Below, one piece after another: positions 21,725 through 38,385 of a stretch of 39,700 nt of DNA (within the stretch, counting starts at the first letter, position 1; each line of letters begins with the position of its first letter). Both the position numbers and the translations under genes were made by a program. The notes below the pieces were generated by a model. It searched no databases. It was not told the DNA's origin and saw only the letters and a list, made by a program, of their open reading frames with translations. The DNA is from an uncultured Erysipelotrichaceae bacterium (GTDB lineage: Bacteria; Bacillota_I; Bacilli_A; Erysipelotrichales; Erysipelotrichaceae), in contig CADABS010000022.1 of NCBI GenBank assembly GCA_902786245.1, forward strand, positions 1 to 39,700, in the 5' to 3' direction.

Positions 21725-22999
21725 CTATCCGAGAGGTTTATATTTCGGCATCCGGCAGTATCTGGTGCCTCTGCCGCTGCCCATAACACGCAGACAGCCG
21801 CTGTTCTTCAGTGAATTGACAGTCCGGATTGCCTTGTCTCTGCTCCAGCCGAGCTCCAGCGCAATCTCGCTGCTTGAAAGCAATAACCCGCTGTCCAGCA
21901 GATCGATTACTTTTTTCCCATCAGTCGTTACAGAATAATCATCCGCAATGACCGGCAGAATCACGGTAATGGAGTGATCTGTTATATGAAACTGCGGTTT
22001 GACTGTATATGCTTCATATGCCTCTTTGATCCTCCGGATACCCGTGCCGAACATTTCAATGTAATGCATTCTGAAAAATACATTCCCGATGACCGGATTC
22101 CGCAGAACCGAAATCATGCCGTTCAGATATTCTTCTTCTGTGATCCCGCCGGGCAGTCCGCCGGGAGAAGACACTTCGATCCGGTCTGCCCACATGGAGA
22201 TCCGGATATGGGAACGGATATCCCATGTTCTGTGGACAAGCGCATTGGCAATTGCTTCCCGGAATGCTTTCTGCGGTATGATTTCAATCTGCTTTCTCTC
22301 AAATCCTTCTATCCTCTCATATTGATAATATCTGAGGAACATCGCTGCAGCTTCGTCATACTGCTTCAGTATCGACATATTTGAAAATGTCTGTCTCTCA
22401 AGAATCTCATCGATGGAGTTTCCAAAACGGGCAATATCAATTCCGCAGAACGAATTCCGGTCCGCAAACAGCTCACCGGCAATATTGATCTGCCCGTCCT
22501 GTGTATAGAATCCGAGTGTTCTGAGCATATCATCCGAACATTTCCGGACACCGAGTTTCTCAACCAGTTTTTCTTCCAGACATTTGAATGTATATCTGTT
22601 CTGACTCCCCGGAAGTTCTTCATAATACATGTTGCTGCCTTCCAGAGTCAGTCTTTTCAGTTCAAGCTGGTCGGCTTCAATGGTGGAAGAATCATTTCTT
22701 TTATATGCCTTTCCTCTGTACAGATACGGTTTGTATCTTCCTTCACTGACCCTCAGCGTAATAACATTGTGTTTCCGATTGATGCTGAGGGTATAGTCAG
22801 GGACAGGATGAATACTGTCATTGATCCTGTTTTCTATATCGAGGCAGGCACTCTCGGGTTCTTCGATACCGCCAATCGTACCGTCATCATTGATGCCGAA
22901 TTTTATGATTCCATTTCCGTAATTCGCATATGCACTGACCGTTTTCAGAAATGTACTGGTGATTTCAGCTTTGAATTCCAGGCAACGGCTTCCCCTCAT
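21725..22999 (-). CDS. AlbA_2/HATPase_c_4 ATP-binding protein, putative regulator
   Basis: This 424-residue protein has an N-terminal Schlafen AlbA_2 domain (about 1-110; LEFKAEITSTFLKTVSAYAN, then IIKFGINDDGTIGG). A GHKL-like ATPase part follows (about 250-345; AFREAIANALVHRTW, DRIEVSSPGGLPGGIT, EMFGTGIRRI). A C-terminal winged helix lies at about 360-424 (SSSEIALELGWSRDKAIRTV). Proteins of this layout are often annotated as transcriptional regulators, but their function is mostly unknown. The ATG at 22999 follows AAGGGGTGA; an upstream in-frame start would overlap the promoter. A long inverted repeat across the -35 may be its own operator. Confidence 0.88.
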   Translation of the reverse strand: MRGSRCLEFKAEITSTFLKTVSAYANYGNGIIKFGINDDGTIGGIEEPESACLDIENRINDSIHPVPDYTLSINRKHNVITLRVSEGRYKPYLYRGKAYKRNDSSTIEADQLELKRLTLEGSNMYYEELPGSQNRYTFKCLEEKLVEKLGVRKCSDDMLRTLGFYTQDGQINIAGELFADRNSFCGIDIARFGNSIDEILERQTFSNMSILKQYDEAAAMFLRYYQYERIEGFERKQIEIIPQKAFREAIANALVHRTWDIRSHIRISMWADRIEVSSPGGLPGGITEEEYLNGMISVLRNPVIGNVFFRMHYIEMFGTGIRRIKEAYEAYTVKPQFHITDHSITVILPVIADDYSVTTDGKKVIDLLDSGLLLSSSEIALELGWSRDKAIRTVNSLKNSGCLRVMGSGRGTRYCRMPKYKPLG

Positions 23000-23026
23000 G
23001 GTGCTCACCCCTTTCTTTCTGAAATC

Positions 23027-23085
23027 ATTATAGGAATGGCACAGCAAAAGTGCAACGCAAACGTTTTCGTTGCATTTGCGTTGCA
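23027..23085 (-). promoter_or_regulatory. Promoter and operator candidate of the AlbA_2 gene
   Basis: Leftwards: -35 TTGCAC (23055-23050), exactly 17 bases, then a perfect -10 TATAAT (23032-23027). Two 11-bp arms, TGCAACGCAAA (23051-23061) and TTTGCGTTGCA (23075-23085), form a perfect inverted repeat that overlaps the -35. A further CGTTGCA copy lies between them (23068-23074). This looks like a multi-site operator. Confidence 0.8.
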
Positions 23086-23132
23086 TTCATTTATGTGTTA
23101 TTAGAGTTTTAATGCAATGGAAAATTTCCCTG

Positions 23133-23834
23133 TCACCCGAGGAAATGTTCCAGTGTATCCCTGTCGGTATCCGGCAGGATCTTTTTGAGATGACGCAGAA
23201 GTCTCTGTTTTGATTCTTCCGGGGTGTATTTATAAACCCTGTTCGTAAACTTCTTCCCGAAGAATTCCTCCGGTGTTGCGTACCTGGCAATGCCCCAGCC
23301 ATAGAAGTTTCCGTTCTTATCGACTTCGTATTCAAAATCGGTTGTTGTGATATAGCCCATCATCTGCAGCTTTGTGATCAGTGTATCGAATCCCTTGCGG
23401 GGCTGCCACTGATCCGGACCGTCTTTCTTCGGCTTGATATAGCCTCCGACTGCCTTGGCATCCTTGGAAAGGATCGAATGTCTGGACGCGATCAGCTCAT
23501 ACAGATACTGTTCATTGTAATTGCTGAGTCCTTCATCCACTCTGGCATCATAGTCATATCCGTCCCGCCGATAATTGGCAAAATCAGGAAACCATTTCGA
23601 AGAGATAAAGGCTGCCTTCTTCCCAAAGAACTTGCCGTAGGCACAGCGCAGTTCCTGGATGACCGGTCCCTTCCATTCCCAGACGCCCGGTTCTTTGGAA
23701 AAATAGGTTTCCGGTGCACAGTTTTCTTCAATGGAAAATCCCGGTATTTCATTCGCAAAGAACGGCAGAATGCCAAGTTCTTCCACGGCCTGTTTCAGGT
23801 CTTCTTTTGTCCGTATATAAAAGTCTGCCATCAT
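23133..23834 (-). CDS. AlkZ-related protein of unknown activity
   Basis: This 233-residue soluble protein resembles proteins annotated as AlkZ-related, distant relatives of the winged-helix YcaQ/AlkZ DNA glycosylases. The basis is the N-terminal pattern LPFFANEIPGFSIEENCAPE followed by WEWKGPVI; I am recalling the family from memory. The glycosylase catalytic QxQ motif is not visible, so DNA repair activity is unproven. It contains a basic segment (KPKKDGPDQWQPRKG) and a C-terminal helix rich in Arg and Lys. The start ATG at 23834 overlaps the TGA of the kptA gene (ATGATG), so the two are translationally coupled and perhaps act together. Confidence 0.6.
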   Translation of the reverse strand: MMADFYIRTKEDLKQAVEELGILPFFANEIPGFSIEENCAPETYFSKEPGVWEWKGPVIQELRCAYGKFFGKKAAFISSKWFPDFANYRRDGYDYDARVDEGLSNYNEQYLYELIASRHSILSKDAKAVGGYIKPKKDGPDQWQPRKGFDTLITKLQMMGYITTTDFEYEVDKNGNFYGWGIARYATPEEFFGKKFTNRVYKYTPEESKQRLLRHLKKILPDTDRDTLEHFLG

Positions 23835-24367
23835 TTTTCCCTCTTCAGATATTTTACAGGCACTTCCTTTGTCAGATATACACCGTTTACGGAAAGAAAG
23901 AATGTATATCCGTCTTTTGCCATTCCTGCCGCATCAATGATATAGACAGCCGGTTTCCCGTGTCTCTGTCCGACTTTGACCGCGGTACCGTAATCCTGTG
24001 AAAGATGTACATACAGCCGTGATTTCGGGATCAGTCCCTGTTTCTCAATGGATGACGTAAACTTCTCTCCCGTCCCGTGATACAGAAGTTCCGGAGGTGT
24101 GCATTCCTGCAGTTCGACATCCACCGGTATGGAATGGCCCTGGTTGGCTCTGATCTTTGTATGATCTTCATTGAAGGAATAGCGCTGTTTCTGATCCTGC
24201 GCGACGATCCTTTCCAGATCATCCATCGTGATATGTTTTGTCTGATTGATTCCATGGATCAATTGTTCCGTATCCGCCCAGCCGTGCTCATCCAGCGTTA
24301 TGCCGATGGCTTCCGGCTTATGGCGCAGAATCAATGAAATGAATTTACTGATTTCCGTGTCTGACAT
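23831..24367 (-). CDS. kptA: RNA 2'-phosphotransferase KptA (Tpt1 family)
   Basis: This 178-residue enzyme uses NAD+ to remove an internal 2'-phosphate from RNA, forming ADP-ribose 1'',2''-cyclic phosphate; family members also ADP-ribosylate nucleic acid ends. All expected motifs are present: SLILRHKPEAIG (catalytic Arg-His), IRANQGHSI, LLYHGTGEKF and YVHLSQDYGTAVKVGQRHGKPAVY split over two blocks, giving the Arg-His-Arg-Arg set. AAGGAG precedes the ATG at 24367. Bacteria lack the tRNA splicing that needs this enzyme in fungi, so its substrate is unclear. Coupling to an AlkZ-related gene is notable. Confidence 0.95.
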   Translation of the reverse strand: MSDTEISKFISLILRHKPEAIGITLDEHGWADTEQLIHGINQTKHITMDDLERIVAQDQKQRYSFNEDHTKIRANQGHSIPVDVELQECTPPELLYHGTGEKFTSSIEKQGLIPKSRLYVHLSQDYGTAVKVGQRHGKPAVYIIDAAGMAKDGYTFFLSVNGVYLTKEVPVKYLKREK

Positions 24368-24504
24368 ACATATCTCCTTACAGCGGCAGATCAATGCTGA
24401 AACAGCTGACGCTGTCCCGGATTGTTTCTGTCAGCTCATATCCCTCTCTTCTTTCCATTTTACATATTATGAATCATCTATGCAGAAGATAAAACAGATC
24501 TATG

Positions 24505-24544: not shown

Positions 24545-25765
24545 TTATTTCTTTGTGACGTCCTTTGTCGTATTGATCTGCAGCAGTTTGTCTGTCAGCT
24601 GGTTCTCAATGCGTCTGAGTTCAAGCTCAGCAGCTTCTCTCTTCTGTCTGCCGTCCTTCTGGATCTCAAGAACTTCATCCAGTGTCGCGATCAGCTGTTC
24701 ATTTGTATGCTGGAGCGTTTCGATATCGACGATGCCGCGTTCGCTTTCCTTGGCTGTTTCGACCGTTGCCTGATGCAGTGTCTCGGCATTCTTCTTGAGC
24801 AGCTCGTTTGTCATGTTCGTGACTTCGCGCTCTGCTTCCATGGCTTCCTTGGAATGCTGGATACCCAGGGACAGAACGATCTGGTTCTTCCACAGCGGGA
24901 TCGTATTGACGATCGTGGACTGGATCTTCTCTGTCATCAGAGTATCGTTGTTCTGTACCAGACGGATCTGCGGAGCCATCTGAATGGATACCTGTCTTGT
25001 CAGTTCCAGGTCATACAGTTTCTTTTCGAAGCGTACGCATGCCTGTTCCAGGTCATTGGCCTTCTGCGCATCTTCCGGCAGTCCGGAAGCCTTTGCCTTT
25101 TCGATCAGCTTCGGCAGATCTTCTTCTCTGACCTTCTGCAGCTTCTTGCGGCCGGCCAGGATGTACATCGACAGTTCCTTTGTGTTCTGGGCATTGCGCT
25201 CATACAGTTCATCCAGCAGAGCGATGTCCTTTAACAGTGTGATCTGATGGTCTTCCAGAATGGCAGAGATCTTGTCGACATTGGCTTCGACCTTGTCATA
25301 CTTTGCCTTGTATTCCGTGACCTTGTTCTTGCCTTTGGAGAACATGCCGCTGAACAGGCCCTTCTTCTCTTCTTCCTCATTGGTTGTTCTGAGTTCAACC
25401 ACCAGGCTGCTCAGCAGTCCGCCGATCTCGCCGAGATCCTTTGTGCGTACATTCTGCAGCGCTGTGTTGGAGAAATCCGTTACCTTCTTCTGAGCGGCTG
25501 CGCCGTACTGCAGAATGGTATTGGACTCTGTGATATCGATCTTTTCCGAGAAATCATTGATCGTTCTGCGCTCTGCTTCACTCAGCTGCAGCTGTTCAAG
25601 CGGATCTGTCGTCCTGGCTTCTTCTTCCTTCTTGCCCTCGAGTTCAGCCAGTTTTGCGGAATTTTCCGCCTGCAGTTCATCCGGTGTCAGCGTCAGTGTA
25701 ATTGTCGGTTCTTCCTGAACCTGTGCCTGTGTTTCAGCCTGTACATTATTGTTTGATTCTGTCAT
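24545..25765 (-). CDS. telA: TelA/KlaA-family protein (toxic anion resistance family)
   Basis: This 406-residue, highly charged, largely helical cytosolic protein belongs to the TelA family (Bacillus YaaN/YceH). The N-terminus is Gln/Glu/Thr-rich and disordered. Family features follow: KVEANVDKISAILEDHQITL, DIALLDELYERN, VSIQMAPQIRLVQNND and VNTIPLWKNQIVLSLGI. The C-terminal third is coiled coil. Homologues are linked to tellurite resistance and envelope stress, mechanism unknown. GAGGAAGG precedes the ATG at 25765. TelA genes are usually paired with xpaC; here the nearest XpaC-like gene is about 11.6 kb away, and the immediate upstream gene is a nucleotidase-like protein. Confidence 0.92.
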   Translation of the reverse strand: MTESNNNVQAETQAQVQEEPTITLTLTPDELQAENSAKLAELEGKKEEEARTTDPLEQLQLSEAERRTINDFSEKIDITESNTILQYGAAAQKKVTDFSNTALQNVRTKDLGEIGGLLSSLVVELRTTNEEEEKKGLFSGMFSKGKNKVTEYKAKYDKVEANVDKISAILEDHQITLLKDIALLDELYERNAQNTKELSMYILAGRKKLQKVREEDLPKLIEKAKASGLPEDAQKANDLEQACVRFEKKLYDLELTRQVSIQMAPQIRLVQNNDTLMTEKIQSTIVNTIPLWKNQIVLSLGIQHSKEAMEAEREVTNMTNELLKKNAETLHQATVETAKESERGIVDIETLQHTNEQLIATLDEVLEIQKDGRQKREAAELELRRIENQLTDKLLQINTTKDVTKK

Positions 25766-25802
25766 TATTTCTACCTTCCTCAATTATGATTTATACGCAC
25801 CT

Positions 25803-25832
25803 AGTATAGCATGAACTGACTGTCTTCAGTTC
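25803..25832 (-). promoter_or_regulatory. Extended -10 promoter and inverted repeat before telA
   Basis: Leftwards an extended -10, TGC-TATACT (25811-25803), lies 37 bases before the telA start. The inverted repeat GAACTGA-N6-TCAGTTC (25813-25832) overlaps the stop codon of the preceding gene and lies in the -35 to -10 spacer. No T-run follows, so an operator is more likely than a terminator. Confidence 0.55.
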
Positions 25833-27706
25833 TTTTCTTTCTTCGGTTTGAGATTCAGCAGCCAGATCAGCAGACGCAGTCCGATGATGGCACCGAGCAC
25901 CGCCGCCGCTGTTTTCCCGTATTCGCGCAGACCGTAGCTGGAAGTATTCCGGAAGAAGCGGATCAGATCAAAGGAAGTATCTGCTTTTCTGGAAAAACTC
26001 CTGTCAAAATCGTCTTTCGCGATTTCCGGCACATTGTTCTGATTCCGTTCTCTTTCCTTCAGATAATCGGCCAGAACGGTCCAGGGTTTCTTCAGGGCAC
26101 CGTTATCATCCGCCAGCCGGTACTGGCTGAAGTCGCCGAGCGTAAAGCCATTGGCAGTACGGGCGGTCACACGCAGATCGCCGCCGGTCGAATCCGCCGC
26201 TGCTTTAAGTCTTCTCAGAATAGATTCCGTCGTAATGACCGGATAGAGTTTGTCTTTTTCGATCGGGGTATAGTACTGCCGGGTCGAGGCGACATATACT
26301 TCTTCGACTCTGTTCAGTTCCCCGCGCTGATCGGAATATACATAATACATATTTCCGAAGTACATCTGGTGTTCTTCTTCGTCCGCAAACATACTGCGGT
26401 CGATTTCACAGGCATCGAGCAGGTCCGAACCCCGCAGATAGACTCTCAGCAGCGGTTCTCCGACGATGCCGAATTCATCCATGCCGTACCCGGCTGCGTG
26501 ATAGATGTCTTCGATCGTGATATTGCCTTTGACGATCCGGCCGGTGACCATTTCTCGGGAAATAATCGAAAGTACCGGATGATTGTCGTATTCTTCCCGC
26601 TCATATGCTTCGCACAGCGATGCCGCAAGCAGTTCCGCCATGGCATTGTTGGAAAGAGAGTCCGTGTCCCGGATATCCGTAAACGTTTTCCGGGAAGAAG
26701 CGATGACCTGACCGTTCGTATAGCCATAGCGGTTCATCATATTCGCCTGCACATTTGCGGCCAGCGAATTGACTTTCTCCCGGATTTCCGGATTTTCGCC
26801 GTATACATCCGGATCGAGTTCATAGAGTCTGTAATCCGTAATCTGCTTGTCCTTCGGTGTGATTTCCATCATACCGAGATACCTGCCGCCTTCTCCTGCC
26901 GAGATGACCGCAGTCTGTTCAACATATGTCACTTCCTCTGCCGGCAGAATGCTGTGTCCGGCAAGCAGTACGTCAATGCCTTTATGTTTCTGGATCAGTT
27001 TCTGTATCTTTTCGAAATTATCGCTGTGATACAGACAGATGATCAGATCGCATCCCTCCAGACCTTCCAGACAGGAAGATACTGCTTCATCTTCATCGGT
27101 TCCCGGACGCAGATCCGTATCGGTCAGACCGAACACACCGATCCTGAATCCGCCTCTTTCGATGATCTTGTACGCTTTGCCGCCTTTGGCAGAGAATACC
27201 GCTTCCGCACCGGTATCGTCATTGAAATCCGGATTGGCACACAGCAGTGTCGGAATCTCTTCCGGAGATGCCTCAACCATCGCCTTGAACATATCCATGC
27301 CATAGGTGAATTCTCTTTCACCCAATGCGGCAGCGTCATATCCCATCATGCCCATCAGCGTCAGCGCCGGTGCTTCTTTTGCATACAGACTGTCATACAC
27401 GGAACCGGTACTGAAATCGCCGCCATCCAGCAGGATTGCATTGTCCGTCCGGTATGTATCGATGGCACTTGCGACTCTGGCAAAGCCGCCGAAAGTCTTG
27501 GTGAGGACTTCCGTCTCCACCGTGCCGTCTTCTTTCTGCGTTTCCTTTGTCACTTCCGTCTTATAGCCGCTGATCGCAGCCTGCAATGACTGCGTAAACA
27601 GGATCTTTACGGAACCGTCTGCTATATCATCCGTCCCTTCTGCTCTGACGGGCATAAACCCCGTCAGTAACAGCAGAGACAGAATAAAAACATGTCTTTT
27701 CTTCAT
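25826..27706 (-). CDS. Membrane-anchored 5'-nucleotidase-family protein, probably inactive
   Basis: This 626-residue exported protein has a signal peptide (cleavage near VRAEG) and a C-terminal membrane helix with basic tail (AVLGAIIGLRLLIWLLNL). Between them lies the 5'-nucleotidase/UshA layout: a metallophosphatase domain (about 30-270) and a C-terminal nucleotidase domain (about 340-540). Several metal ligands are gone. The first motif (family TNDxH) reads TQSLQ, with Ser40 and Gln42 in place of Asp and His. The GNHE motif reads GEREF (129-133). GHxH reads GHSI (250-253). GGD (Asp97) and His227 remain. It is therefore a likely pseudoenzyme or uses another chemistry. GAGGAA precedes the ATG at 27706. 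Confidence 0.88.
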   Translation of the reverse strand: MKKRHVFILSLLLLTGFMPVRAEGTDDIADGSVKILFTQSLQAAISGYKTEVTKETQKEDGTVETEVLTKTFGGFARVASAIDTYRTDNAILLDGGDFSTGSVYDSLYAKEAPALTLMGMMGYDAAALGEREFTYGMDMFKAMVEASPEEIPTLLCANPDFNDDTGAEAVFSAKGGKAYKIIERGGFRIGVFGLTDTDLRPGTDEDEAVSSCLEGLEGCDLIICLYHSDNFEKIQKLIQKHKGIDVLLAGHSILPAEEVTYVEQTAVISAGEGGRYLGMMEITPKDKQITDYRLYELDPDVYGENPEIREKVNSLAANVQANMMNRYGYTNGQVIASSRKTFTDIRDTDSLSNNAMAELLAASLCEAYEREEYDNHPVLSIISREMVTGRIVKGNITIEDIYHAAGYGMDEFGIVGEPLLRVYLRGSDLLDACEIDRSMFADEEEHQMYFGNMYYVYSDQRGELNRVEEVYVASTRQYYTPIEKDKLYPVITTESILRRLKAAADSTGGDLRVTARTANGFTLGDFSQYRLADDNGALKKPWTVLADYLKERERNQNNVPEIAKDDFDRSFSRKADTSFDLIRFFRNTSSYGLREYGKTAAAVLGAIIGLRLLIWLLNLKPKKEKN

Positions 27707-27740: not shown

Positions 27741-27776
27741 ACAATAAAACAGAGAATCTGTTTCAGGATTCTCTGT
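27741..27776 (-). terminator. Terminator of the sugar importer/glycosidase operon
   Basis: On the minus strand ACAGAGAATC and GATTCTCTGT (arms 27776-27767 and 27758-27749, eight-base loop) form a perfect 10-bp stem followed by TTTATTG. It includes the stop codon of the glycosidase gene and isolates the nucleotidase-like gene, although its T-run is interrupted. Confidence 0.82.
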
Positions 27777-29226
27777 TCCGGAAGTATGTCCGCAGGAAAT
27801 AGGACGGCGTGCAGCTCCATGCATGGCAGAAGCTGTGCACGATCAGGCCGCCGTAGGGAGAGGCAAGCGGGTCTTTCGGGTCATACAGTTCCCAGAATGT
27901 ATCCGCGCCTTTTTCAATCATGCCGTCCCAGTATGCATGCATTTTTTCATAGGCTTTTTCTTTCTGACCGGTATCGATCAGAGCCTGGATGTAATGATGG
28001 ACCGCATAGGGCGACACCATACCTTCCGCTTCCGGCATCTTTTCGATGTGCTCCAGAACGGATGCGCCAAGACGCGGGCTGACTGCACCGGCAAGGATGA
28101 TCCAGATCTGCGACATATATGAGACCTGACGTGACGGGCCGCTGACAAATACCCCTTTGGATTCATCATACAACCGCAGAACCGCCTGTTTCTTCAGCTG
28201 TATCTCACGTTCGAATTCCTCTGCCGGAAGACCCAGCTGCCGGCGTATCTTCACCAGATCGCTCAAACCGTATATGTAAACACCCTGTCCGGCTGCCTGT
28301 TTGTCCAGACGCAGATTCCAGTCGATGAATACATTGCCTGCTTTTTCTGTATCCAGCAGATGATTCTCGTCAAAGCATGTCTTCAGCAGAAGTGCCTGTC
28401 TGGTGCAGACCGGTTCCAGTTCCCGCAGCGTCTCTTCATCGCGGCTGGCACAGTAGTAGTCCCAGAGCGTATTGATGAAGAACAGCGTATAGTCGAACAT
28501 CGTCTGGTCATCGCATTTCGGCTGAGGATACAGGAAGATATTATTGGACAGACGTCCGCCTTCCAGGGTGCTTCCGGCAAAGAGATAGAGACATCTTTTC
28601 ACCAGGTCATAGTTCCGGTAGGTAACATAATCGGTCAGGGCTTCCAGACGCAGGTCGCCCAGCCAGAGCCTCCGGTCGCGCTTGGGTCCGTCTTCAAAGA
28701 CCTCCTGCATGCATTCATGGAGCGTCCGGACGGATACTTCATCCAGCTTCCTGTCTTTTTCATTCAGAGATGCCGGCATCAGCTGACTGTCATCCGCACT
28801 GGATACGGTATCTGCCTTCAGTGATCTGATGGTGACGGCATAGTTATTGGAAACGCTGAGGATACGGATCCGGACATAGCGGAATGCATATCTTCTTTCC
28901 AGCCGGCAGGTACAGGGAAGATCATCAATATGAATGGTCTCCGACTGGACCCAGCTTCTGGAAATCCAGCCATGGTATTCTTCCGGATCATAGTCCAGTT
29001 CTTCCCGGATCTCCGCAAACTGTATGGAAAACAGCAGCGGTGCATCGGGATGTCTGCCCTCGGTACCGAATTCGATATCCAGGTACCCGACGCAGTGGCG
29101 GCCGAAGTCGAAGATACATTCGCCGCCGTCTTTCATCGGCGTTTCATTTCCTGCCAGAAGAACCGCCTGATGATGCAGAACCGGCTTCAGCTGTTCTGCC
29201 TTTGTCAGAAAGATTTCATTGGTCAT
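27763..29226 (-). CDS. GH78-like glycosidase (alpha-L-rhamnosidase-like), intracellular
   Basis: This 487-residue protein has no signal peptide. An N-terminal beta-rich part (about 1-150) is followed by an alpha/alpha-barrel catalytic domain. GH78 hallmarks are EDGPKRDRRLWLGDLR (about 178-193, aligning with the family's D-P-R-rich acid motif) and the C-terminal FWELYDPKDP...HSFCHAWSCTPSYFL region. It is shorter than most GH78 enzymes, which carry extra beta domains. The substrate would be a small rhamnoside or related glycoside delivered by the importer, since the gene closes that operon. The start at 29226 has GGAG five bases upstream. Specificity cannot be fixed from sequence alone. Confidence 0.82.
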   Translation of the reverse strand: MTNEIFLTKAEQLKPVLHHQAVLLAGNETPMKDGGECIFDFGRHCVGYLDIEFGTEGRHPDAPLLFSIQFAEIREELDYDPEEYHGWISRSWVQSETIHIDDLPCTCRLERRYAFRYVRIRILSVSNNYAVTIRSLKADTVSSADDSQLMPASLNEKDRKLDEVSVRTLHECMQEVFEDGPKRDRRLWLGDLRLEALTDYVTYRNYDLVKRCLYLFAGSTLEGGRLSNNIFLYPQPKCDDQTMFDYTLFFINTLWDYYCASRDEETLRELEPVCTRQALLLKTCFDENHLLDTEKAGNVFIDWNLRLDKQAAGQGVYIYGLSDLVKIRRQLGLPAEEFEREIQLKKQAVLRLYDESKGVFVSGPSRQVSYMSQIWIILAGAVSPRLGASVLEHIEKMPEAEGMVSPYAVHHYIQALIDTGQKEKAYEKMHAYWDGMIEKGADTFWELYDPKDPLASPYGGLIVHSFCHAWSCTPSYFLRTYFRNRES

Positions 29227-29243
29227 AGACTCCGGTCCCCGTT

Positions 29244-30197
29244 TCAGTGTCTGAAGATCTGTTTCAGTCTGCCTTCATTGTTCAGATAGATCAGGAAGGA
29301 TACCATCAGGACAGCAGAGATGATCTGCTGGTAGGAAGATGATACATTCAGACGGACATAGATCAGGGAGATGACAGCCATGGACAGAGCCCCGAGCAGA
29401 TAGCCGAGCTTGTCATTGGTGAACCGGCCGATGAATCCGCCGACGAACATCGGCAGGAATGCCAGAAACATGACGGATATCGAACCGAAATTCAATGCCA
29501 TTGTGATCGAACCGTTATTGGTTGCGGAAATGAATCCCTGGGCACCCATCAGCCCGCCGGCGATGACATAGCACAGGACCGCATTCTTCACCTCATTGAT
29601 ACCGGTGCTGACCGATACCTTCTGACCGCTCAGAAGCGCCTTGTACTCATAGCCGAAGCGGGTATGGTCATAGACGATGACCATAAACACAAGCGCTGTC
29701 AGAATGACAAGAAGATAATTCGGGATCGTACCGAATCCGAGAATCTCCGCATTGCCGGCCAGGGTCACGCCGTGTCCGCCGGTCAGCGTGAAGGCAAAGC
29801 CTTCATAGAACAGCGCCACCGCCAGAGATACGATAATCGGCGGAAGCTTGACGGTGACATACAGCAGTCCGGACAGAAGTCCGAGCAGACAGCCGAAGAA
29901 GACGGAAAGAACCAGCATCGCCAGCGGACCGGCACCTGTCTTCAGAGTGATCATGGAACTGATCACGGAAGAAAGCAGGGCGATCGATCCGATGGAGAAG
30001 TCGAATCTTCCGGAATTCAGGTTGATCGACAGGGCAAACGTCACCAATACGGTATTGGCTGCCGCCCGGACAAAGGTCGTCCAGCTCAGCAGGGAATCAA
30101 ACAGGACAATACCCTGTGCGCTGCTGATCAGCAGACATGCCGCAAATACAATCACCGGTATGGCAAGCGTACCTGCCAGTTTCTTTCCGTTTTTCAT
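29244..30197 (-). CDS. Sugar ABC importer permease, RbsC family (second permease)
   Basis: This 317-residue membrane protein has about nine hydrophobic segments. RbsC-type features are ALSINLNSGRFDFSIGSIAL (about 57-76), where family members read NLSVGS-like, and the internal TRFGYEYKALLSGQ coupling segment. AGGTGG precedes the ATG at 30197. A second, distinct permease lies upstream in the operon, so the channel is probably a heterodimer, unlike classic RbsC homodimers. It is followed 17 bases later by the glycosidase gene. Confidence 0.9.
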   Translation of the reverse strand: MKNGKKLAGTLAIPVIVFAACLLISSAQGIVLFDSLLSWTTFVRAAANTVLVTFALSINLNSGRFDFSIGSIALLSSVISSMITLKTGAGPLAMLVLSVFFGCLLGLLSGLLYVTVKLPPIIVSLAVALFYEGFAFTLTGGHGVTLAGNAEILGFGTIPNYLLVILTALVFMVIVYDHTRFGYEYKALLSGQKVSVSTGINEVKNAVLCYVIAGGLMGAQGFISATNNGSITMALNFGSISVMFLAFLPMFVGGFIGRFTNDKLGYLLGALSMAVISLIYVRLNVSSSYQQIISAVLMVSFLIYLNNEGRLKQIFRH

Positions 30198-30220
30198 AAG
30201 CCACCTCGCAGTTTAAAGTC

Positions 30221-31417
30221 TTATTTCTGAATTTCCTCGAATGAATATGCCGCAACGAATTTTGCGAAATCGTCATAGGATGCACCGATCAGTGTATCCA
30301 GCATTTCCTTGGTATATGCAGGTTCTGTTGTGGAAGAATCGACTTCATAGTATTTCTTTGCGTCTTCGGCATTGTCCGCAACCCAGTAGCCCTGCGACAG
30401 AGCCAGTGCGTTTCCGTCATTGTCTCTGACCGGCTTGCCGTATACTGCGGACAGGGTTGCCGCAAAGACCGGTCCGATCGAAGCTGAGAACTTGCCTGCC
30501 AGATAATTCAGTGTTCCTTTTTCCATCAGGCCGACGGAATCTGCTGTATAGCAGTCGATATCACCGAGCATCTTTCCTTCCGGCTTGAATCCGGCGAATG
30601 CCACCTGACCGGAGCCTACTGCCAGCAGAACTTCTACATTGGGATCATTGGCAACAGCTGTCAGTTTTCCATACCATGCGTCATCAAAGTCATAGCCTGC
30701 AACGACACCGTTGACCTCAACACTGCCGATCTTGCCGGGATTGACATTGCCGCCTTCGCCCATGATCTTTCCGACGATGGCCATGCCTTCTGCGCCTTCA
30801 TATGTACCCTTGCCTGCTTCGCACATCGCTGCCAGCATACCGGCTGCCCGGTAGATATGCATTTCCGTGTAGTATACGGAAGCGCCTGTGAACATGCCGA
30901 ACTTTGTATATCCCTGATCCAGGAAGTGCTTTGCCATGTCATAGCCGGCCTGGTATTCTGCCGCAAGATCCGGTCCGATGGCACCGACATAGTGCGCATA
31001 GCCCTTGTATTTTTCATACTGTTCATCGGTCAGTGTTCCGGTTGCGACGGCGTAGTAGATGCCCTCGGATTCGCATTTTTCAATCTGGGCAGGTCTGTCT
31101 GCGGAAGCGAAGGAAATGATCGCTTGGCAGTTGTTGGCAATGAAGTTGTCGATTGCACTCTGCTCGGCAGAGGCATCTTTTAGTTCATCGGAATACATGA
31201 ATTCGACGTTGTAGACAGACTGGATGTACTTTTCGTAGTATGCCTTGAACGCAAGCGCTTCGGCACTGGTCGTATCGGAGACAAGCACTCCGATTTTAAC
31301 GGTCTTCTGTGACGGATCATCGGAAGAACCGCCTCCCGATTCCTGTGAACATGCGGTCAGTGTGAAGACCATCAGAAGTGATAAACACAATGCAAAGAAT
31401 TTCTTAACTGATTTCAT
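30221..31417 (-). CDS. Sugar ABC importer binding lipoprotein
   Basis: This 398-residue extracellular lipoprotein has a signal peptide with lipobox LTAC and a short Gly/Ser/Asp linker, then a two-lobed periplasmic-binding-protein fold (KIGVLVSDTTSAEALAFKA, QAIISFASADRPAQIEKCE). A tail conserved in many sugar-binding proteins is not obvious. AAGGAGGGAACG precedes the ATG at 31417. It lies between the two permease genes. Aromatic residues in the presumed cleft (VGAIGPD, TGASVYYTEMHIY, QGYWVADN) fit a carbohydrate ligand, which fits the glycosidase in the operon. Confidence 0.9.
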   Translation of the reverse strand: MKSVKKFFALCLSLLMVFTLTACSQESGGGSSDDPSQKTVKIGVLVSDTTSAEALAFKAYYEKYIQSVYNVEFMYSDELKDASAEQSAIDNFIANNCQAIISFASADRPAQIEKCESEGIYYAVATGTLTDEQYEKYKGYAHYVGAIGPDLAAEYQAGYDMAKHFLDQGYTKFGMFTGASVYYTEMHIYRAAGMLAAMCEAGKGTYEGAEGMAIVGKIMGEGGNVNPGKIGSVEVNGVVAGYDFDDAWYGKLTAVANDPNVEVLLAVGSGQVAFAGFKPEGKMLGDIDCYTADSVGLMEKGTLNYLAGKFSASIGPVFAATLSAVYGKPVRDNDGNALALSQGYWVADNAEDAKKYYEVDSSTTEPAYTKEMLDTLIGASYDDFAKFVAAYSFEEIQK

Positions 31418-31447
31418 CGTTCCCTCCTTATTCTTTTTTGTGTCTGA

Positions 31448-32404
31448 TTATCTTGGCAGTATTGTTTTTCTGTTATTCAGCATGGAAACAAATACCACGA
31501 GTATGAATATTGCGGCTTTGACCATCTGTCCGATGCCGGAGTTCAGGTTCAGCATTAACATGATTTGCGACAGCAGGGTCATGGACAGAGCACCGATGGC
31601 AGCGGAATAGATCCTGGATCTTGCCCCGCCGGATACCGGCATGCCGCCGAAGACGATCGATATGATGACATCCATACCGATACTGCCGGCTGTATTTCTC
31701 GATAATGTCGGGGCATAGGTAATTGTCAGGAATGCCCCCAGACCTACTCCCAGACCCGCCATGACGAAGCCGATGACGGACAGTTTCTTTGCGTTCAGTC
31801 CGCTCAGCTGTGCACACAGCGGATTGCCGCCGACGAATTTCTCCTGCCGTCCGAGTTTCATGAAATTGAATGTCAGTACGCACAGACCGAAGAACAGCAG
31901 GAACACCAGCAGCTTGAATCCCACCGTATTCAGCTTCGAAACCGCTTCGGCCGGAATCTGGATGACATCGCCGGTGCCGTTGGCCTTGATCAGTACCAGC
32001 ACCAGCGCATTCAGCAGGGAAAGCATGGCAATGGTTGTGACAAATACCGGCAGATTGAATACCGATGCGAGAAGCGAACTGGTCAGCGAGATCAGTACGG
32101 CACAGCCGACGCATACCCCCAGCATCACCGCCACCGATCCGGTCCGGTTATAGGCCATGGCCCCGACCAAGGCGCTGACGCACATCGATGCGCCCAGGGA
32201 AATATCGAAGGCACCGAGGGTATAGATATACACTGCACCGGTCGCCACGACCATCGTGATGATGGATTGGTTGAGTATGTTCTTCATGCTGTAGGGAATA
32301 TTGATGTCCTTGATCAAAGCGAAGACAAGAAACAGGATCCCGAGCAGGATCATGCCTGCCAGCGGCGCGGCACTGAGAAGTTTTTCTCTGAGTTCTTTTT
32401 TCAT
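31448..32404 (-). CDS. Sugar ABC importer permease, RbsC family (first permease)
   Basis: This 318-residue permease has about nine membrane segments. The family pattern AVYIYTLGAFDISLGASMCV (about 57-76) resembles the conserved GGIDLSVGS region of RbsC proteins; FVGGNPLCAQLSGLNAKKL is the cytoplasmic coupling segment. AGGAG precedes the ATG at 32404, and only eight bases separate it from the ATPase gene upstream. It pairs with the second RbsC-type permease in the operon. Confidence 0.9.
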   Translation of the reverse strand: MKKELREKLLSAAPLAGMILLGILFLVFALIKDINIPYSMKNILNQSIITMVVATGAVYIYTLGAFDISLGASMCVSALVGAMAYNRTGSVAVMLGVCVGCAVLISLTSSLLASVFNLPVFVTTIAMLSLLNALVLVLIKANGTGDVIQIPAEAVSKLNTVGFKLLVFLLFFGLCVLTFNFMKLGRQEKFVGGNPLCAQLSGLNAKKLSVIGFVMAGLGVGLGAFLTITYAPTLSRNTAGSIGMDVIISIVFGGMPVSGGARSRIYSAAIGALSMTLLSQIMLMLNLNSGIGQMVKAAIFILVVFVSMLNNRKTILPR

Positions 32405-32412
32405 ATGCGCTC

Positions 32413-33903
32413 CTAGATCATATATTCAATGACATCTGCCTCAGACAGCTGCCTGCTGCGGAACAGTTCCTTCTGCAGTTTTCCGTCTTTCATGACCAGC
32501 AACCGGTCGGACATGCCGATCAGCTCCGTCATTTCCTCGGAAATCAGGATGATCGATTTTCCTTCCTGCTTCATCCGGTACATCAGCTGATACATCGCCT
32601 GCTTGACACCGATATCGACGCCTCTGGTCGGACAGTCGAGAATCAGGATCGATGAATCCCGTCCGGTCCATTTTCCGAAGGCGGCTTTCTGCTTGTTGCC
32701 GCCAGAGAGGGTGCTGACATACTGGTTTCTGTCATTGCACTTGATCCGCAGGTTTTTGATCTGCGCATCGACATAGCTGTTTTCTCTGGAAGGCAGAATG
32801 AATGCGTTATGCACGGCAATCTTATCCAGTCCGGCAATTGCGATATTGTCTTTGATCGATGCCTCCAGGCACAGCGATTCCGTATCCCTGTCCTTGGCGA
32901 CATAGCCGATGCCTTCCTTCATGGCTTCTGCTTCATTGCGGATCTGTCTGCCATGGACCGTAAAGCTGCCGCTTTCCGCTTTCTCGTTTCCAAAGAGAAC
33001 TTTGCCCAGGGTATGCATGCCGCAGTGCGACAGTCCGCCGATGCCGAGGATCTCTCCGGCATGGAGTTCAAACGAGAAGTCAGAAAGCTGATCGGTATGA
33101 TTGAGATGCTCTGCCGCAAGAACGACTTCCGAAGATACTTCCCCGTCATAGTCATCGCGGTAGTAGCTGCCCTGCAGTTCTCTTCCGATCATCGCTGCCT
33201 TGATGGCGCCTTCCTCAAATTCTTCATGTTCGAATGTCCGGATGATCTTTCCGTCCCGCAGTACCGTCAGACGGTCGCATTTCTCCATGATTTCATCGAG
33301 ATCATGGGAGATGAAGATGACCGTTTTTCCTTCCTTCCGCATGGTATTCATGATGCCGTAGATAATATCTCTGCCCTTCTGTGACAGAGCAGTCGTTGTT
33401 TCATCGACAACCAGCACTTCCGGATCCTTTGCCATGACCCGGGCGATTTCCAGCAGCTTCCGGTCCTGGAAGTCCAGCATCCCGGTCATCATTTCCGCTC
33501 TGATATGGCCTGCCCCGATCGCGTCCAGAGCTGCCTGCGCATCCCGGTTCATCTTCTTCCGGTTCACGAACAGTCCGGACACATACTCCTGCGTCTCTCC
33601 CAGGAAGATATTCTCGGCTGCGCTGATGCCCGGTACCGTACCGTTTTCCTGCACGATCATGCCGACACCGCGCTTCAGTGCATCATTCATGGAAACCGGA
33701 TGCCAGGGTTCTCCTTTGAAGAACATTTCTCCGCTGCTGCATGTCTGCATCCCCGCATAGATCGATGTCGCCGTTGATTTTCCCGATCCGTTTTCACCGA
33801 TCAGTCCGAGCACTTCACCGCTCTGTGCACTGAAAGATACGTCGTTCAGGGCAATTGTCGGCCCGAAACTTTTATGCATATTTCTGATTTCAAGCATTTC
33901 CAT
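32413..33903 (-). CDS. Sugar ABC importer ATPase, RbsA-like tandem ATPase
   Basis: This 496-residue protein has two ATPase domains. Domain 1: Walker A GENGSGKS (about 40), degenerate signature LDFQDRK, intact Walker B VLVVDETTTALS. Domain 2: no usable Walker A (GLSHCGMHTLGK), intact signature LSGGNKQK, and Walker B LILDCPTRGVD in which Cys424 replaces the catalytic Glu. Only the composite site of Walker motifs 1 and signature 2 can be active. Loss of Walker A in the second half is normal for RbsA; the Cys is not. The ATG at 33903 follows GAGGGTG; ATG 33897 is an alternative. It heads a five-gene operon controlled by the divergent AraC protein. Confidence 0.92.
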   Translation of the reverse strand: MEMLEIRNMHKSFGPTIALNDVSFSAQSGEVLGLIGENGSGKSTATSIYAGMQTCSSGEMFFKGEPWHPVSMNDALKRGVGMIVQENGTVPGISAAENIFLGETQEYVSGLFVNRKKMNRDAQAALDAIGAGHIRAEMMTGMLDFQDRKLLEIARVMAKDPEVLVVDETTTALSQKGRDIIYGIMNTMRKEGKTVIFISHDLDEIMEKCDRLTVLRDGKIIRTFEHEEFEEGAIKAAMIGRELQGSYYRDDYDGEVSSEVVLAAEHLNHTDQLSDFSFELHAGEILGIGGLSHCGMHTLGKVLFGNEKAESGSFTVHGRQIRNEAEAMKEGIGYVAKDRDTESLCLEASIKDNIAIAGLDKIAVHNAFILPSRENSYVDAQIKNLRIKCNDRNQYVSTLSGGNKQKAAFGKWTGRDSSILILDCPTRGVDIGVKQAMYQLMYRMKQEGKSIILISEEMTELIGMSDRLLVMKDGKLQKELFRSRQLSEADVIEYMI

Positions 33904-33927
33904 AAGCACCCTCAGATTGATTACATC

Positions 33928-34009
33928 TTTATACTAGCAAGGATAAAAATATTAAAAATTGTAAATTGTTACCGCTTACATTGACTGCATTTGATGAAAA
34001 TATTAAATT
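33928..34009. promoter_or_regulatory. Divergent control region: cre and paired direct repeats
   Basis: A perfect cre, TGTTACCGCTTACA (33967-33980), fits TGWNANCGNTNWCA at all positions. It is flanked by two copies of AAAATATTAAA (33946-33956 and 33997-34007) spaced 51 bases, five helical turns. Leftwards a weak promoter, TTTAAT-N17-TATAAA (33956-33928), serves the importer operon. Rightwards TTGACT-N17-TAAATT (33981-34009) serves the AraC gene. One repeat covers each promoter element, which suits AraC sites that activate the operon and restrain the regulator. CcpA would repress. Confidence 0.7.
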
Positions 34010-34048
34010 AATTATAGATTATTGACTTTATTTAATATTGAGGTGAAT

Positions 34049-35104
34049 ATGAACGAGAAAGAGCTGCTGCAGGAATTATATGCACTGAATGAATCGGAAC
34101 GGTTCTACCGCTCCTACCAGCAGGCAAAAAAAGATCCGGCTTCCTTCAGCCGGTTTCTGCATTCCCTGGATATCCGGGAATGCGTACAGAAACATATTCT
34201 GATTCCGGAGTTCAAGGAAACCATGCCTCCGTCCATGCGCGATGAATATTTCTATTCCGATACGGAAGCAGGCATGGTCGTGCAGAAGCACAACTGCTAC
34301 TCACCGGATTTCGAGCATTTCCATACGTATTTTGAAGCATTCTATGTCTATGACGGCACCTGCGATCATGCATTGGGCGGAAAAAAAGAAACCATGCATA
34401 TCGGTGATTTCTGCATTATTCCGCCGGGCGTCTCGCACCGGATCTCCGTGCAGAACCAGAGTATTGTCATCGTCATGATCCTCTCTGCCCAGGTCATCGA
34501 GAATACCTTCCGGAATCCGACGTTTTATAAGAACAATCTTCTTTCGGAATTCTTTCTCAAGCATCTGCGCTTTTCCAGCGAAGATGACAGTCTTGTGTTC
34601 CATACCGGCAATGACCAGGATCTCAGGAATATACTGATCCAGATGATGCTGGAGAGCAGAAACAAATACCAGGAATACGATGCCATCCTCTCTGCATATT
34701 TCTCTCTGTTTTTCGGCAAGCTGCTGCGCCATTATGAACATACGATCGACGCACCTGACCAGGACAGCCGCAGAAATGCGGCAGCGGCCGATATTGTCGC
34801 CTATATCCATGAACACCATACGGATATCACTCTGCCGCAGCTGGCGGAAAAATACCATTACACCCCGGAATACACATCCCGCTATATCAAAGAAGTCACG
34901 GGCCGTACATTCTCCCAGATCCTGATCGATGCCCGCATGAAACATGCAGTATCACTGCTGCAGTCGACCGGTCTGCCGGTTTCGGAAGTCGCCTACCAGG
35001 TCGGCTATGAGAATACGGAGAATTTCATCCGCAGGTTCAAGAAGACATACAATAAAACACCGGACCGCTACCGCAGGGAACTGCTCATGCGTCTGATCCG
35101 GTGA
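34049..35104 (+). CDS. AraC-family transcriptional regulator
   Basis: This 351-residue protein has an N-terminal cupin-type sensing domain (about 85-160; PDFEHFHTYFEAFYVYDG, GDFCIIPPGVSHRI). It ends with two helix-turn-helix motifs (about 250-350; DITLPQLAEKYHYTPEYTSR and LPVSEVAYQVGYENTENFIR). AGGTG precedes the ATG at 34049; a longer in-frame start is unlikely because it would use a region with promoter-like sequence. It is divergent from the sugar importer operon and should respond to the imported sugar or glycoside. The repeated AAAATATTAAA element in between is a good candidate site. Confidence 0.93.
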   Translation: MNEKELLQELYALNESERFYRSYQQAKKDPASFSRFLHSLDIRECVQKHILIPEFKETMPPSMRDEYFYSDTEAGMVVQKHNCYSPDFEHFHTYFEAFYVYDGTCDHALGGKKETMHIGDFCIIPPGVSHRISVQNQSIVIVMILSAQVIENTFRNPTFYKNNLLSEFFLKHLRFSSEDDSLVFHTGNDQDLRNILIQMMLESRNKYQEYDAILSAYFSLFFGKLLRHYEHTIDAPDQDSRRNAAAADIVAYIHEHHTDITLPQLAEKYHYTPEYTSRYIKEVTGRTFSQILIDARMKHAVSLLQSTGLPVSEVAYQVGYENTENFIRRFKKTYNKTPDRYRRELLMRLIR

Positions 35105-35199: not shown

Positions 35200-37362
35200 T
35201 CAGTGATTGCCTGCCATTTTGAGCAGATCATCCAGGGTCGGAGACTTCTTTTCCTCTTTCGGCTTGATCTTGACGGTAAAGTCAAAGTCTTCCAGCAGAA
35301 GTGCGCTCATATCCGCTTCCGGATCCTTGACCAGACGCTCGGACTGACGCAGAATCGCATCTTCGACGACGTTTCTTGCCAGACGTCCGTTGCCTGCCTC
35401 TGCCGCATTGATCGACTGTACTTCATTGAAGTAAGCTTCGAGCTTCTCATTGACTGCTTCGTCAATGACATAGCCCTTGGACTTCGCCTGCAGCGCTGCG
35501 ATCTTGCGGAGTTCTTCGCCGGTATAATCCGGGAAGTGGATCAGATTCGGGAATCTGGATTTCAGACCGCTGTTGGATTCCAGGAAGGAAGCCATTTCCT
35601 TCGAGTATCCGGCCAGGATGACGATCAGGTCATCACGGTTGTCTTCCATTGCCTTGACCAGTGTATCGATTGCCTCCAGACCGAAGGAATCATCTTTTCC
35701 TCTGTAGAGGGAATAAGCTTCATCGATGAACAGAACGCCGCCGATGGCCGATTTGATGACCGACATCGTTAACGGTGCCGTCTGGCCGACATACTGGGCG
35801 ACAAGATCTGCTCTGGTCACTTCCACCAGCTGGCCCTGGGACAGAGCGCCGATGGCTTTCATATAGCGGGAAATCAGACGGGCAATCGTCGTTTTGCCGG
35901 TACCCGGATTTCCGGTAAAGATCATATGCTTGGAGACTTCTGCCGTCTTCATGCCCTGTTCGCGTCTTCTCTGCTGCATTGCGATATGCGACTGCAGGGA
36001 ACGGATATAGTTCTTGACCATATCCAGACCGACGATCTCATCGAGTTCCGCATTGACCGCATCGATTTCCTCCTGCGAGTTCTTCGAACGGGACAGACGG
36101 ACTTCCATATGATCGCAGGCTGCCATCGGCACATCATTGACGACTTTCAGAACGACCGGATCATTGTCATTTCTGGCTTCCTTCAGTGCCATCTCACTCA
36201 GGGATACATAGAAATCATAGAACTGTGCCGTAATGGAATAGGCACCCTGGGTCTTGTCGAAATGGCGGAATACCCAGTCTTTGATTTCTTCCGGAACGGT
36301 CAGACTGATCTTCAGGTTTTCTCTGACTCTGGACGCAAGCGAAGCGGACTGGTTTTCGATGATCGCTTTGACGCTTTCCTCATCAAGCTGTTTCAGGGTT
36401 ACGGTATCGAGCACATGATACATGAAATCGGCACCGAAATAGTCCTGTACCTTGGAAGGCTTCTGGGACGTGATGAATACGAGATACTTGCCTTCGGCGG
36501 AAAGCGAATCCACGCTCTCTTTGACAAGTCCGGTCTGGTTTTCGACCAGGACGCCTTTGGTCAGTACATATCTCTTGTTCAGTACGACTCTGCCATCTGT
36601 CGCAAGGCTGTCGACCATGCGCAGGAATGCCGGGAATCCGTTTTCGAAATGCTCGAAGCAGATGATGGAACCTTCCCCGGTCAGTGCTTCATACAGATCC
36701 TGCAGGAAGATGGATTCCTGTGCACCGCTGGTGTATCTGCTCATATCGATGGTATAGACCGCATCGCTGGCAAATACTTTCTTTTCGTACAGAGAACGGG
36801 CCATCTGGGTGACTGCTTCATGGCGTCCCGATCCGCTCGGGCCGCTGATCAGAATGACATTCTTCGGCTTGCCGGATTCCGTACCCATGACATAGGGGCG
36901 GCGGAAAGCAATGATCATCTGACGCAGTGCGTCTTTCTGACCCATGATTTTGGAAATCAGGACGTTGTATACTTCTTCAAACAGGTTTTCGGATACCGTG
37001 GCAGGTTCATGGAATTCTTCCTTCGGGAAGATATTCTCCTGGGTTCCGTAGTCCCGCTTAATGTCTTTTTCCAGCTGTTCCATATCCATCAGAGACGGAT
37101 CGATACTGTGATCAAGATCTTTCATCTGCGAAGAAAGCTCTTCGAGATCTTTCTGCTGTTTCTTAAGGATCTTGTTGAGTTCCTCCATGGCAAGATCAGC
37201 GCTCTTCATCGTGTTTCTGCGCTCTTTTTCCTGCTTTTCATTCGCATTGATCACCAGTTCGATTTCCTGGGATGCGTCAGTGGACTCATAGGTACGGTTT
37301 TTATTCAGCACCTCATTCCAGAGGCGTTCTTTTTCTTCTCTTCTGCGGTCATCCCTTGACAT
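35200..37362 (-). CDS. Two-module AAA+ ATPase with a degenerate first module and CbbX/SpoVK-like second module
   Basis: This 720-residue cytosolic protein has a charged coiled-coil N-terminus (about 40-105). Module 1 (about 130-400) resembles Clp-type AAA+ but has GPSGSGRH (Arg in place of the Walker A Lys, about 171-178) and ICFEHFEN in place of Walker B, so it is probably inactive. Module 2 (about 440-690) is CbbX/SpoVK-like and intact: GNPGTGKTT (about 484), VLFIDEAYS (about 541), LAGY sensor and SGLKSRFPN with an arginine finger (about 600). GGGGGA precedes the ATG at 37362, which starts one base after the stop of the XpaC-like gene. It likely remodels a partner encoded beside it. Function unknown. 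Confidence 0.88.
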   Translation of the reverse strand: MSRDDRRREEKERLWNEVLNKNRTYESTDASQEIELVINANEKQEKERRNTMKSADLAMEELNKILKKQQKDLEELSSQMKDLDHSIDPSLMDMEQLEKDIKRDYGTQENIFPKEEFHEPATVSENLFEEVYNVLISKIMGQKDALRQMIIAFRRPYVMGTESGKPKNVILISGPSGSGRHEAVTQMARSLYEKKVFASDAVYTIDMSRYTSGAQESIFLQDLYEALTGEGSIICFEHFENGFPAFLRMVDSLATDGRVVLNKRYVLTKGVLVENQTGLVKESVDSLSAEGKYLVFITSQKPSKVQDYFGADFMYHVLDTVTLKQLDEESVKAIIENQSASLASRVRENLKISLTVPEEIKDWVFRHFDKTQGAYSITAQFYDFYVSLSEMALKEARNDNDPVVLKVVNDVPMAACDHMEVRLSRSKNSQEEIDAVNAELDEIVGLDMVKNYIRSLQSHIAMQQRRREQGMKTAEVSKHMIFTGNPGTGKTTIARLISRYMKAIGALSQGQLVEVTRADLVAQYVGQTAPLTMSVIKSAIGGVLFIDEAYSLYRGKDDSFGLEAIDTLVKAMEDNRDDLIVILAGYSKEMASFLESNSGLKSRFPNLIHFPDYTGEELRKIAALQAKSKGYVIDEAVNEKLEAYFNEVQSINAAEAGNGRLARNVVEDAILRQSERLVKDPEADMSALLLEDFDFTVKIKPKEEKKSPTLDDLLKMAGNH

Positions 37363-37363
37363 C

Positions 37364-38359
37364 TTACATTCCCCCGTTTCTTGTGGACATCTGTCCGTCG
37401 GAAGTCAGTCCGTCTTTCTGCAGAACTGCCTCCAGAGTCGAAATATCCGCCGAGAGATTGATGAAGTCCTGATCGGTCAGACTGGAGATGATCGTCTTCA
37501 TCGCATCATTGATCAGCGAGATCGTACGGTTCAGCTTCTGCTTTGTCTCTTCATATGCCGGATCGGTCTGGGCTGCCTGCAGATTGTCATACTGCGTCAG
37601 GATCCTGACCAGGATCGGCAGATAGTAGTCATACAGTTTCTTCAGCTTATCGGCAGATCCCGGGAATCTGTCCTGCAGAATCTGGATCTGCTTCAGAAGC
37701 GCGCATGTCTCATAGAGACCGTTGGAAATATTCTCATCCGGAATGTCATCATTCAGCTGGTTGATCTGATTCATGAAATCTTCCGCTGTCTTCTGTCTCG
37801 GTGCTTCCTGCTGCTTCGGCGCTTCTTCTTTGCGCTGCGCTGTTTCCGTCGCCGTGACATCGATGACTTCATCCGCCCGGTTCTGTCTGGACATATTCAG
37901 CAGCTCCGAGAGGATTTCATTATAGGAATCCGGATATCTGCGGCCGAAATCATTCAGCGAGCAGATATAGGTATTGTCCCGGTATACATCCAGGCTGGCC
38001 AGGGATGCATATCTCTGTCCGTGAATGCGCAGATCGATATTGGAACCAATCGGCAGCGAGCGTCTGGTTCTGTACCAGCTGCGCAGGTAGACATTGATCT
38101 TCGCCATGTCCGCAGCGGAATACTTGGAAGAAGAACCGGCCCGGTAGTAATTGCCGGTACGGCTGTATCCGCTGTTATAGCCCTGTGTGCGTCCTTCTTC
38201 GCGCTTTGAAGCGCCGACTGCCGCAAACATGACCGCCATGACGACGGCGAGAATCATCAGTAAAGGAATAAATGCCCCGACGCCTCCTGAAAACATCAGG
38301 AAAATCAGGATCCACCATATATAGTTATTGCCGTTTCCGCGGCCGCGATATCTGCTCAT
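37364..38359 (-). CDS. Membrane-anchored protein with XpaC-like C-terminal domain
   Basis: This 331-residue protein has a basic N-terminus (SRYRGRGNG), two adjacent membrane helices (about 12-50), a Gly/Ser/Tyr-rich linker, a small folded part (about 85-150; YRTRRSLPIGSNIDLRIHGQ) and a Gln/Lys/Pro-rich hinge. The C-terminal helical domain (about 215-325) resembles XpaC (5-bromo-4-chloroindolyl phosphate hydrolysis family): LKKLYDYYLPILVRILTQYD and LSADISTLEAVLQKDGL. XpaC is usually paired with TelA; here TelA is elsewhere in the window. AAGGTGG precedes the ATG at 38359. It overlaps no gene but abuts the AAA+ ATPase gene, suggesting a complex. Confidence 0.75.
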   Translation of the reverse strand: MSRYRGRGNGNNYIWWILIFLMFSGGVGAFIPLLMILAVVMAVMFAAVGASKREEGRTQGYNSGYSRTGNYYRAGSSSKYSAADMAKINVYLRSWYRTRRSLPIGSNIDLRIHGQRYASLASLDVYRDNTYICSLNDFGRRYPDSYNEILSELLNMSRQNRADEVIDVTATETAQRKEEAPKQQEAPRQKTAEDFMNQINQLNDDIPDENISNGLYETCALLKQIQILQDRFPGSADKLKKLYDYYLPILVRILTQYDNLQAAQTDPAYEETKQKLNRTISLINDAMKTIISSLTDQDFINLSADISTLEAVLQKDGLTSDGQMSTRNGGM

Positions 38360-38385
38360 TTGCACCACCTTCGTAATCAAAGAAG

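Follow-up and report, generated by a model that had tools for sequence, protein, structure and literature searches.

The 5'-nucleotidases of the UshA/CD73 type (2z1a, 3ivd, human CD73) are the closest described counterparts of the protein analyzed here, which resembles them in both domains and in its overall fold but differs from them in six of nine active-site positions, in the loss of the Arg388 position, and in the presence of a C-terminal transmembrane anchor. A metallophosphoesterase fold serves as a scaffold in VPS29 of the retromer, which is a single-domain, eukaryotic, cytoplasmic protein; the likeness, drawn by description only, lies in a phosphoesterase fold that is retained for a structural role within a complex. 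Another described system is the TelA/XpaC pair of Bacillota, in which telA and an xpaC-like gene are found in one cluster, as is the case here, whereas the cluster analyzed also contains an AAA+ ATPase gene, the gene of a conserved protein termed c4, and the nucleotidase-like gene. In Clostridia loci, TelA occurs with a distant XpaC-like protein, and there was no nucleotidase-like hit. PMC3498285 lists XpaC and YaaN (TelA) among the members of the Bacillus sigma-W regulon, and a raised sensitivity to nisin and tellurite of a mutant in the Listeria telA homologue is recounted in PMC12791056. A narrow search of the literature, covering the titles and the beginnings of the abstracts of openly licensed papers, retrieved no report of a bacterial pseudoenzyme of the UshA/CD73 family.

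The gene is located at positions 25826 to 27706 on the minus strand of the window, i.e., the whole stretch of 39,700 nucleotides that was analyzed, and encodes 626 amino acids. Its annotation as a pseudo-5'-nucleotidase gene is based on the uninterrupted open frame, Pfam, a structural model, and fold matches, and its codon use is coding-like. Residues 1 to 22 (27641 to 27706, minus strand) form a signal-peptide-like N terminus; inspection by eye showed it to be hydrophobic with VRA-E at its end, and the model contains a helix at residues 2 to 15. A putative membrane-anchor helix, seen in the secondary structure of the model and in the hydrophobic sequence, comprises residues 590 to 625 (25832 to 25939, minus strand), and the basic tail KPKKEKN follows the hydrophobic C-terminal stretch. 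Among the Pfam models, only that of the substrate-binding C-terminal domain matched (5_nucleotid_C, PF02872; 32.2 bits, above the cut-off), and Metallophos (PF00149) had no match in this protein even at an E value of 10. The AlphaFold2 model has a mean pLDDT of 88.9 and a pTM of 0.82. Its best structure matches are 5'-nucleotidases, among them 2z1a (Z of 32.5, 469 residues, 4.1 Å) and CD73 (9hjg_A; Z of 30.8, 466 residues, 3.5 Å), in each case with both domains aligned; CD73 was also on top in a sequence search of solved structures (E value of 1.7e-11). The model, the structure matches, and PF02872 are thus in agreement on the two-domain fold composed of a metallophosphoesterase and a 5'-nucleotidase C-terminal domain. 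The same fold was obtained for a homologue that retains none of the nine active-site residues (L020; model pLDDT of 86.3).

To score the active site, nine metal or catalytic positions were compared in the alignment with the family pattern, namely, D-x-H, D, GNHEFD, H, and GHx(H/N/Q); their roles in metal binding or catalysis are those that we assume from UshA and CD73. The window protein departs from this pattern, since three positions are kept (D97, H227, and H251) and six are changed, with S40 for D, Q42 for H, E130 for N, R131 for H, T134 for D, and I253 for H/N/Q. As shown by the alignment and the nine-site table, TQSLQ (residues 38 to 42; 27581 to 27595; this and the following coordinates are on the minus strand) replaces T-x-D-x-H, so that both metal ligands, at S40 and Q42, are changed, whereas D97 in LLDGGD (27416 to 27418), which we take to be the position of the bridging metal ligand, is kept. 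Similarly, GEREFT (residues 129 to 134; 27305 to 27322) replaces GNHEFD through N130E, H131R, and D134T; H227 in YHS (27026 to 27028) is kept; and GHSI (residues 250 to 253; 26948 to 26959) is changed at I253 and retains H251, which aligns with a His that is invariant among the intact relatives. Of the seven positions that we assign as metal ligands from UshA and CD73, four are changed in the window protein; presumably, one metal site is destroyed and the other has three of its four ligands, the fourth being Glu instead of Asn.

Several of these features had been put forward in a preliminary description of this DNA. The statement that frame, signal peptide, both domains, and anchor are intact over 626 residues agrees with the open frame, the signal-like N terminus, and the two predicted domains, and the altered TQSLQ and GEREF motifs had been read correctly. 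As to the third motif, described as GHSI for GHxH, the alteration stands, but it concerns the last position only and the first His is kept. Conservation of four residues in close relatives had been proposed as a check: Q42 and E130 are present in all four nearest relatives (L005-L008), whereas the position of S40 is occupied by Asn and that of I253 by Val. The four relatives also share R131.

To determine how widespread these changes are, 272 genomes of the family were searched, and 28 contained a homologue at an E value of 1e-20; 22 of these are from the window's genus, of which 70 genomes were examined. With an intact member as query, a search at the level of the order (315 genomes) retrieved the same 28 homologues. 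A class-level search of 395 genomes gave six genomes with a homologue at an E value of 1e-40, two from the set of 28 and four outside it, and a peptide-pattern scan of genome contigs with the window protein detected no further homologues. The nine-site scores are bimodal: 9 of the 28 homologues have all nine residues, 19 have between zero and three, and none lies between. The intact set comprises three proteins of the window's genus (L009, L010, and L018) and all six from other genera, whereas all 19 inactive members are from the window's genus. In accordance, the Metallophos model matches nine of the 28 homologues, and these are the nine intact ones. Intact members have the same length, a signal-like N terminus, and a C-terminal anchor, and differ from the window protein in that the nine sites are present in every one of them. 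The difference extends to the substrate domain, where residues 385 to 388 of the window protein, with E385 and T388 (26543 to 26554, minus strand), align with G-x-x-R of the intact members; position 388 is Arg in 9/9 intact and 0/19 inactive members.

The open frame is full-length in each of the 19 inactive members, which are thus full-length enzyme homologues with missing catalytic residues, as is characteristic of pseudoenzymes. The nearest relative of the window copy is only 39% identical, and 18 residues are invariant across all 28 members. F192, D428, C433, and Y478 are fixed in the 19 inactive members and variable in the intact ones; C433 (26408 to 26410, minus strand), for example, is Cys in 19/19 inactive and 1/9 intact members. 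Because the genus contains 18 more homologues with scores between zero and three, and because the window's genome has three canonical nucleotidase-like paralogues that are all intact, the changes in the window are not due to chance or to an assembly error. A sequencing error was rejected on the same grounds, the loss being common to 19 species with full frames.

These data are probably best explained by a pseudoenzyme common to the whole clade, which would derive from an active ecto-nucleotidase encoded at this same locus and would now be a non-catalytic surface part of a TelA/XpaC envelope-stress module. The main rival to this reading is metal binding at the surviving site, according to which the window protein is a repurposed single-metal protein that uses D97, E130, H227, and H251 for the sensing of a metal or ligand or for a new, weaker hydrolase activity. 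The window protein has all four residues, as do its four nearest relatives (L005-L008), and Glu is able to act as a metal ligand. However, the position of the catalytic His is occupied by Arg, and the D134 and Arg388 positions are lost. Moreover, such a site cannot explain the clade, since D97 and H251 are each lost in 13 of the 19 inactive members, and we consider this alternative unlikely.

In a maximum-likelihood tree calculated with the nine columns masked, the 19 inactive proteins form one clade (98/95) that is nested among intact enzymes. A separate second loss in L023 and L029 was weakly rejected (p-AU of 0.039) and the setting apart of five members was strongly rejected (p-AU of 0.0003), the groupings in both cases having been chosen post hoc, with the tree already seen. 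A single origin of the loss is likely as judged from this phylogeny. In a quick TelA tree (42 rows), the 19 species did not come out as a single group; this tree gave four changes, with several open forks. As TelA does not group these species, one loss, a few losses, or gene transfer are all possible histories.

The gene is followed directly by telA (24545 to 25783, minus strand; PF05816, 411.8 bits), whose start codon lies 43 bases beyond the stop codon of the nucleotidase-like gene. The conserved cluster includes three more genes on the minus strand, namely, that of an AAA+ ATPase with a C-terminal SpoVK/CbbX/EccA-like module (35200 to 37362), an xpaC-like gene termed c3 (37364 to 38380; PF10112, 20.3 bits, below the cut-off of 29.8), and c4 (38466 to 39320), which encodes a 284-amino-acid protein noted for its conservation in the cluster and without a match in Pfam, NCBIfam, or PADLOC. 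The AAA+ protein apparently consists of two modules, a ClpB-like one at residues 19 to 211 and the SpoVK/CbbX/EccA-like one at residues 436 to 690. The abstract of PMC10659427 presents SpoVK as an AAA+ chaperone and activator of MurG; a function of the cluster's AAA protein in the envelope would be in line with this. A known anti-phage system was considered and rejected, as PADLOC had no match to the window protein, TelA, the XpaC-like protein, or c4, and its matches to the AAA protein were weak.

The linkage to telA is kept across species, as would be expected for a member of a TelA/XpaC module. Of the 22 gene-bearing genomes of the genus, 18 have telA directly downstream on the same strand, within about 110 bases; the exceptions are G080, in which an open reading frame lies between, G036, in which telA is 23 kb away, and G043 and G048, in which telA is on another contig. 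The most common order is c4-xpaC-AAA-(nucleotidase-like)-telA, and it was found with intact and inactive versions alike. In the 28 loci fetched, analyzed with a simple gene caller, xpaC-like genes were detected in 15, AAA+ genes in 15, and c4 in 10. The intact L010 and L009 also adjoin telA, as the inactive forms do. Since telA is also linked to the intact genes of G014 and G049, and xpaC and AAA are present as well in G014, the conversion of the enzyme apparently took place at this locus. In the G014 locus, a gene between the AAA and nucleotidase-like genes (L038:6526-7605) encodes a protein that looks secreted and contains a phage-tail lysozyme domain (PF18013).

The nucleotidase-like gene is missing from 48 of the 70 same-genus genomes and TelA has a match in 63 of the 70; therefore, the module does not need this gene. 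Among the gene-less loci, 20 of the 48 were inspected. Five (G064, G063, G044, G058, and G057) encode, just upstream of telA, a protein resembling the one with the phage-tail lysozyme domain in G014, in two (G047 and G018) the AAA gene adjoins telA, and the others have different genes or were unresolved by the caller.

We then analyzed selection on the inactive clade. Five pairs of its members from genomes other than that of the window gave NG86 dN/dS values of 0.059, 0.116, 0.174, 0.141, and 0.174, at dS between 0.44 and 1.48, and the values are rough for the three pairs with dS above 0.9. Among the intact members, two pairs were usable (0.122 and 0.135) and a third was saturated. The dN/dS comparison proposed in the preliminary description, run on close pairs of the inactive clade, thus indicates purifying selection (0.06 to 0.17), i.e., these five pairs are kept by selection, and a pseudogene was rejected for the clade. 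Compared with TelA, the inactive members diverge faster than the intact ones, with a median distance ratio of 4.0 (171 pairs) versus 1.5 to 2.7 (3 pairs). At the nine sites, the mean pair identity in the inactive set is 0.21, versus 0.58 at 70 other columns (p of 5e-5; 79 columns invariant in the intact set, 16 of the 19 inactive rows used). On this alignment, the cleft is evidently released from constraint and much of the remaining protein is held. The earlier proposal that selection keeps the fold without the chemistry is supported by the confident model, the matches to 5'-nucleotidases, the low dN/dS of the pairs, and the changed sites that are held in the nearest relatives.

The faster divergence than TelA, together with the surface-anchored architecture, would also be expected if the protein served in surface binding or adhesion unrelated to the telA cluster, or if phages or host immunity targeted it as a rapidly changing surface protein. 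Against this stand the telA linkage in 18 of 22 genomes, the lack of added adhesion domains in Pfam, and dN/dS values well below 1, and we regard such a role as rather improbable. Of the binding or adhesion role suggested initially, the adhesion part found nothing specific in its favor, and the gene neighborhood points instead to an envelope-stress module. That the gene is decaying, an enzyme without activity that is heading for loss, would agree with its evolution faster than that of TelA, the drift at the nine sites, and its absence from 48 of 70 genomes, but is highly improbable and, for the clade as a whole, unlikely in view of the 19 full-length frames, the dN/dS of 0.06 to 0.17, the 18 invariant residues, and the coding-like codon use of the window copy.

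According to the pseudoenzyme reading, an active ecto-nucleotidase would have turned, most likely once, into a protein that serves through its fold and surface instead of by catalysis. It may form the extracytoplasmic part of a TelA/XpaC/AAA+ envelope-stress module, either as a ligand receptor or as a scaffold for a partner protein, and the newly fixed residues around positions 426 to 490 would be the likeliest contact face. TelA and XpaC are candidate partners on the basis of gene order. A more specific version is tentative and has rather less in its favor: an in-place conversion, within one genus of gut Erysipelotrichaceae, of an active ecto-5'-nucleotidase into the extracytoplasmic receptor or scaffold of a TelA-XpaC-AAA+ (SpoVK/EccA-like) envelope-stress system, in which the cleft would be free to vary and the newly fixed F192, D428, C433, and Y478 would form the partner interface. 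Related species carry either an intact or an inactive form of this surface enzyme at a single locus and constitute a natural series, in which the fate of an active site after the loss of catalysis can be read directly, and the poorly understood TelA/XpaC system gains a candidate extracellular part.

In the window, the cluster is split by a block (27763 to 35104) of AraC-type, sugar-ABC-transporter-like, and rhamnosidase genes, located between the AAA and nucleotidase-like genes. This block, with its GH78-type rhamnosidase, looks like an insertion, the AAA and nucleotidase-like genes being neighbors or near neighbors in most relatives. The genes of the rhamnosidase and the nucleotidase-like protein are separated by a terminator-like hairpin (27747 to 27779, minus strand; fold z-score of -3.5), which the consensus scan did not list as a hit. 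On the other side, beside telA, a KptA/Tpt1-type RNA 2'-phosphotransferase, an AlkZ-related protein, and a Schlafen AlbA_2 protein are encoded in a row (21725 to 24394).
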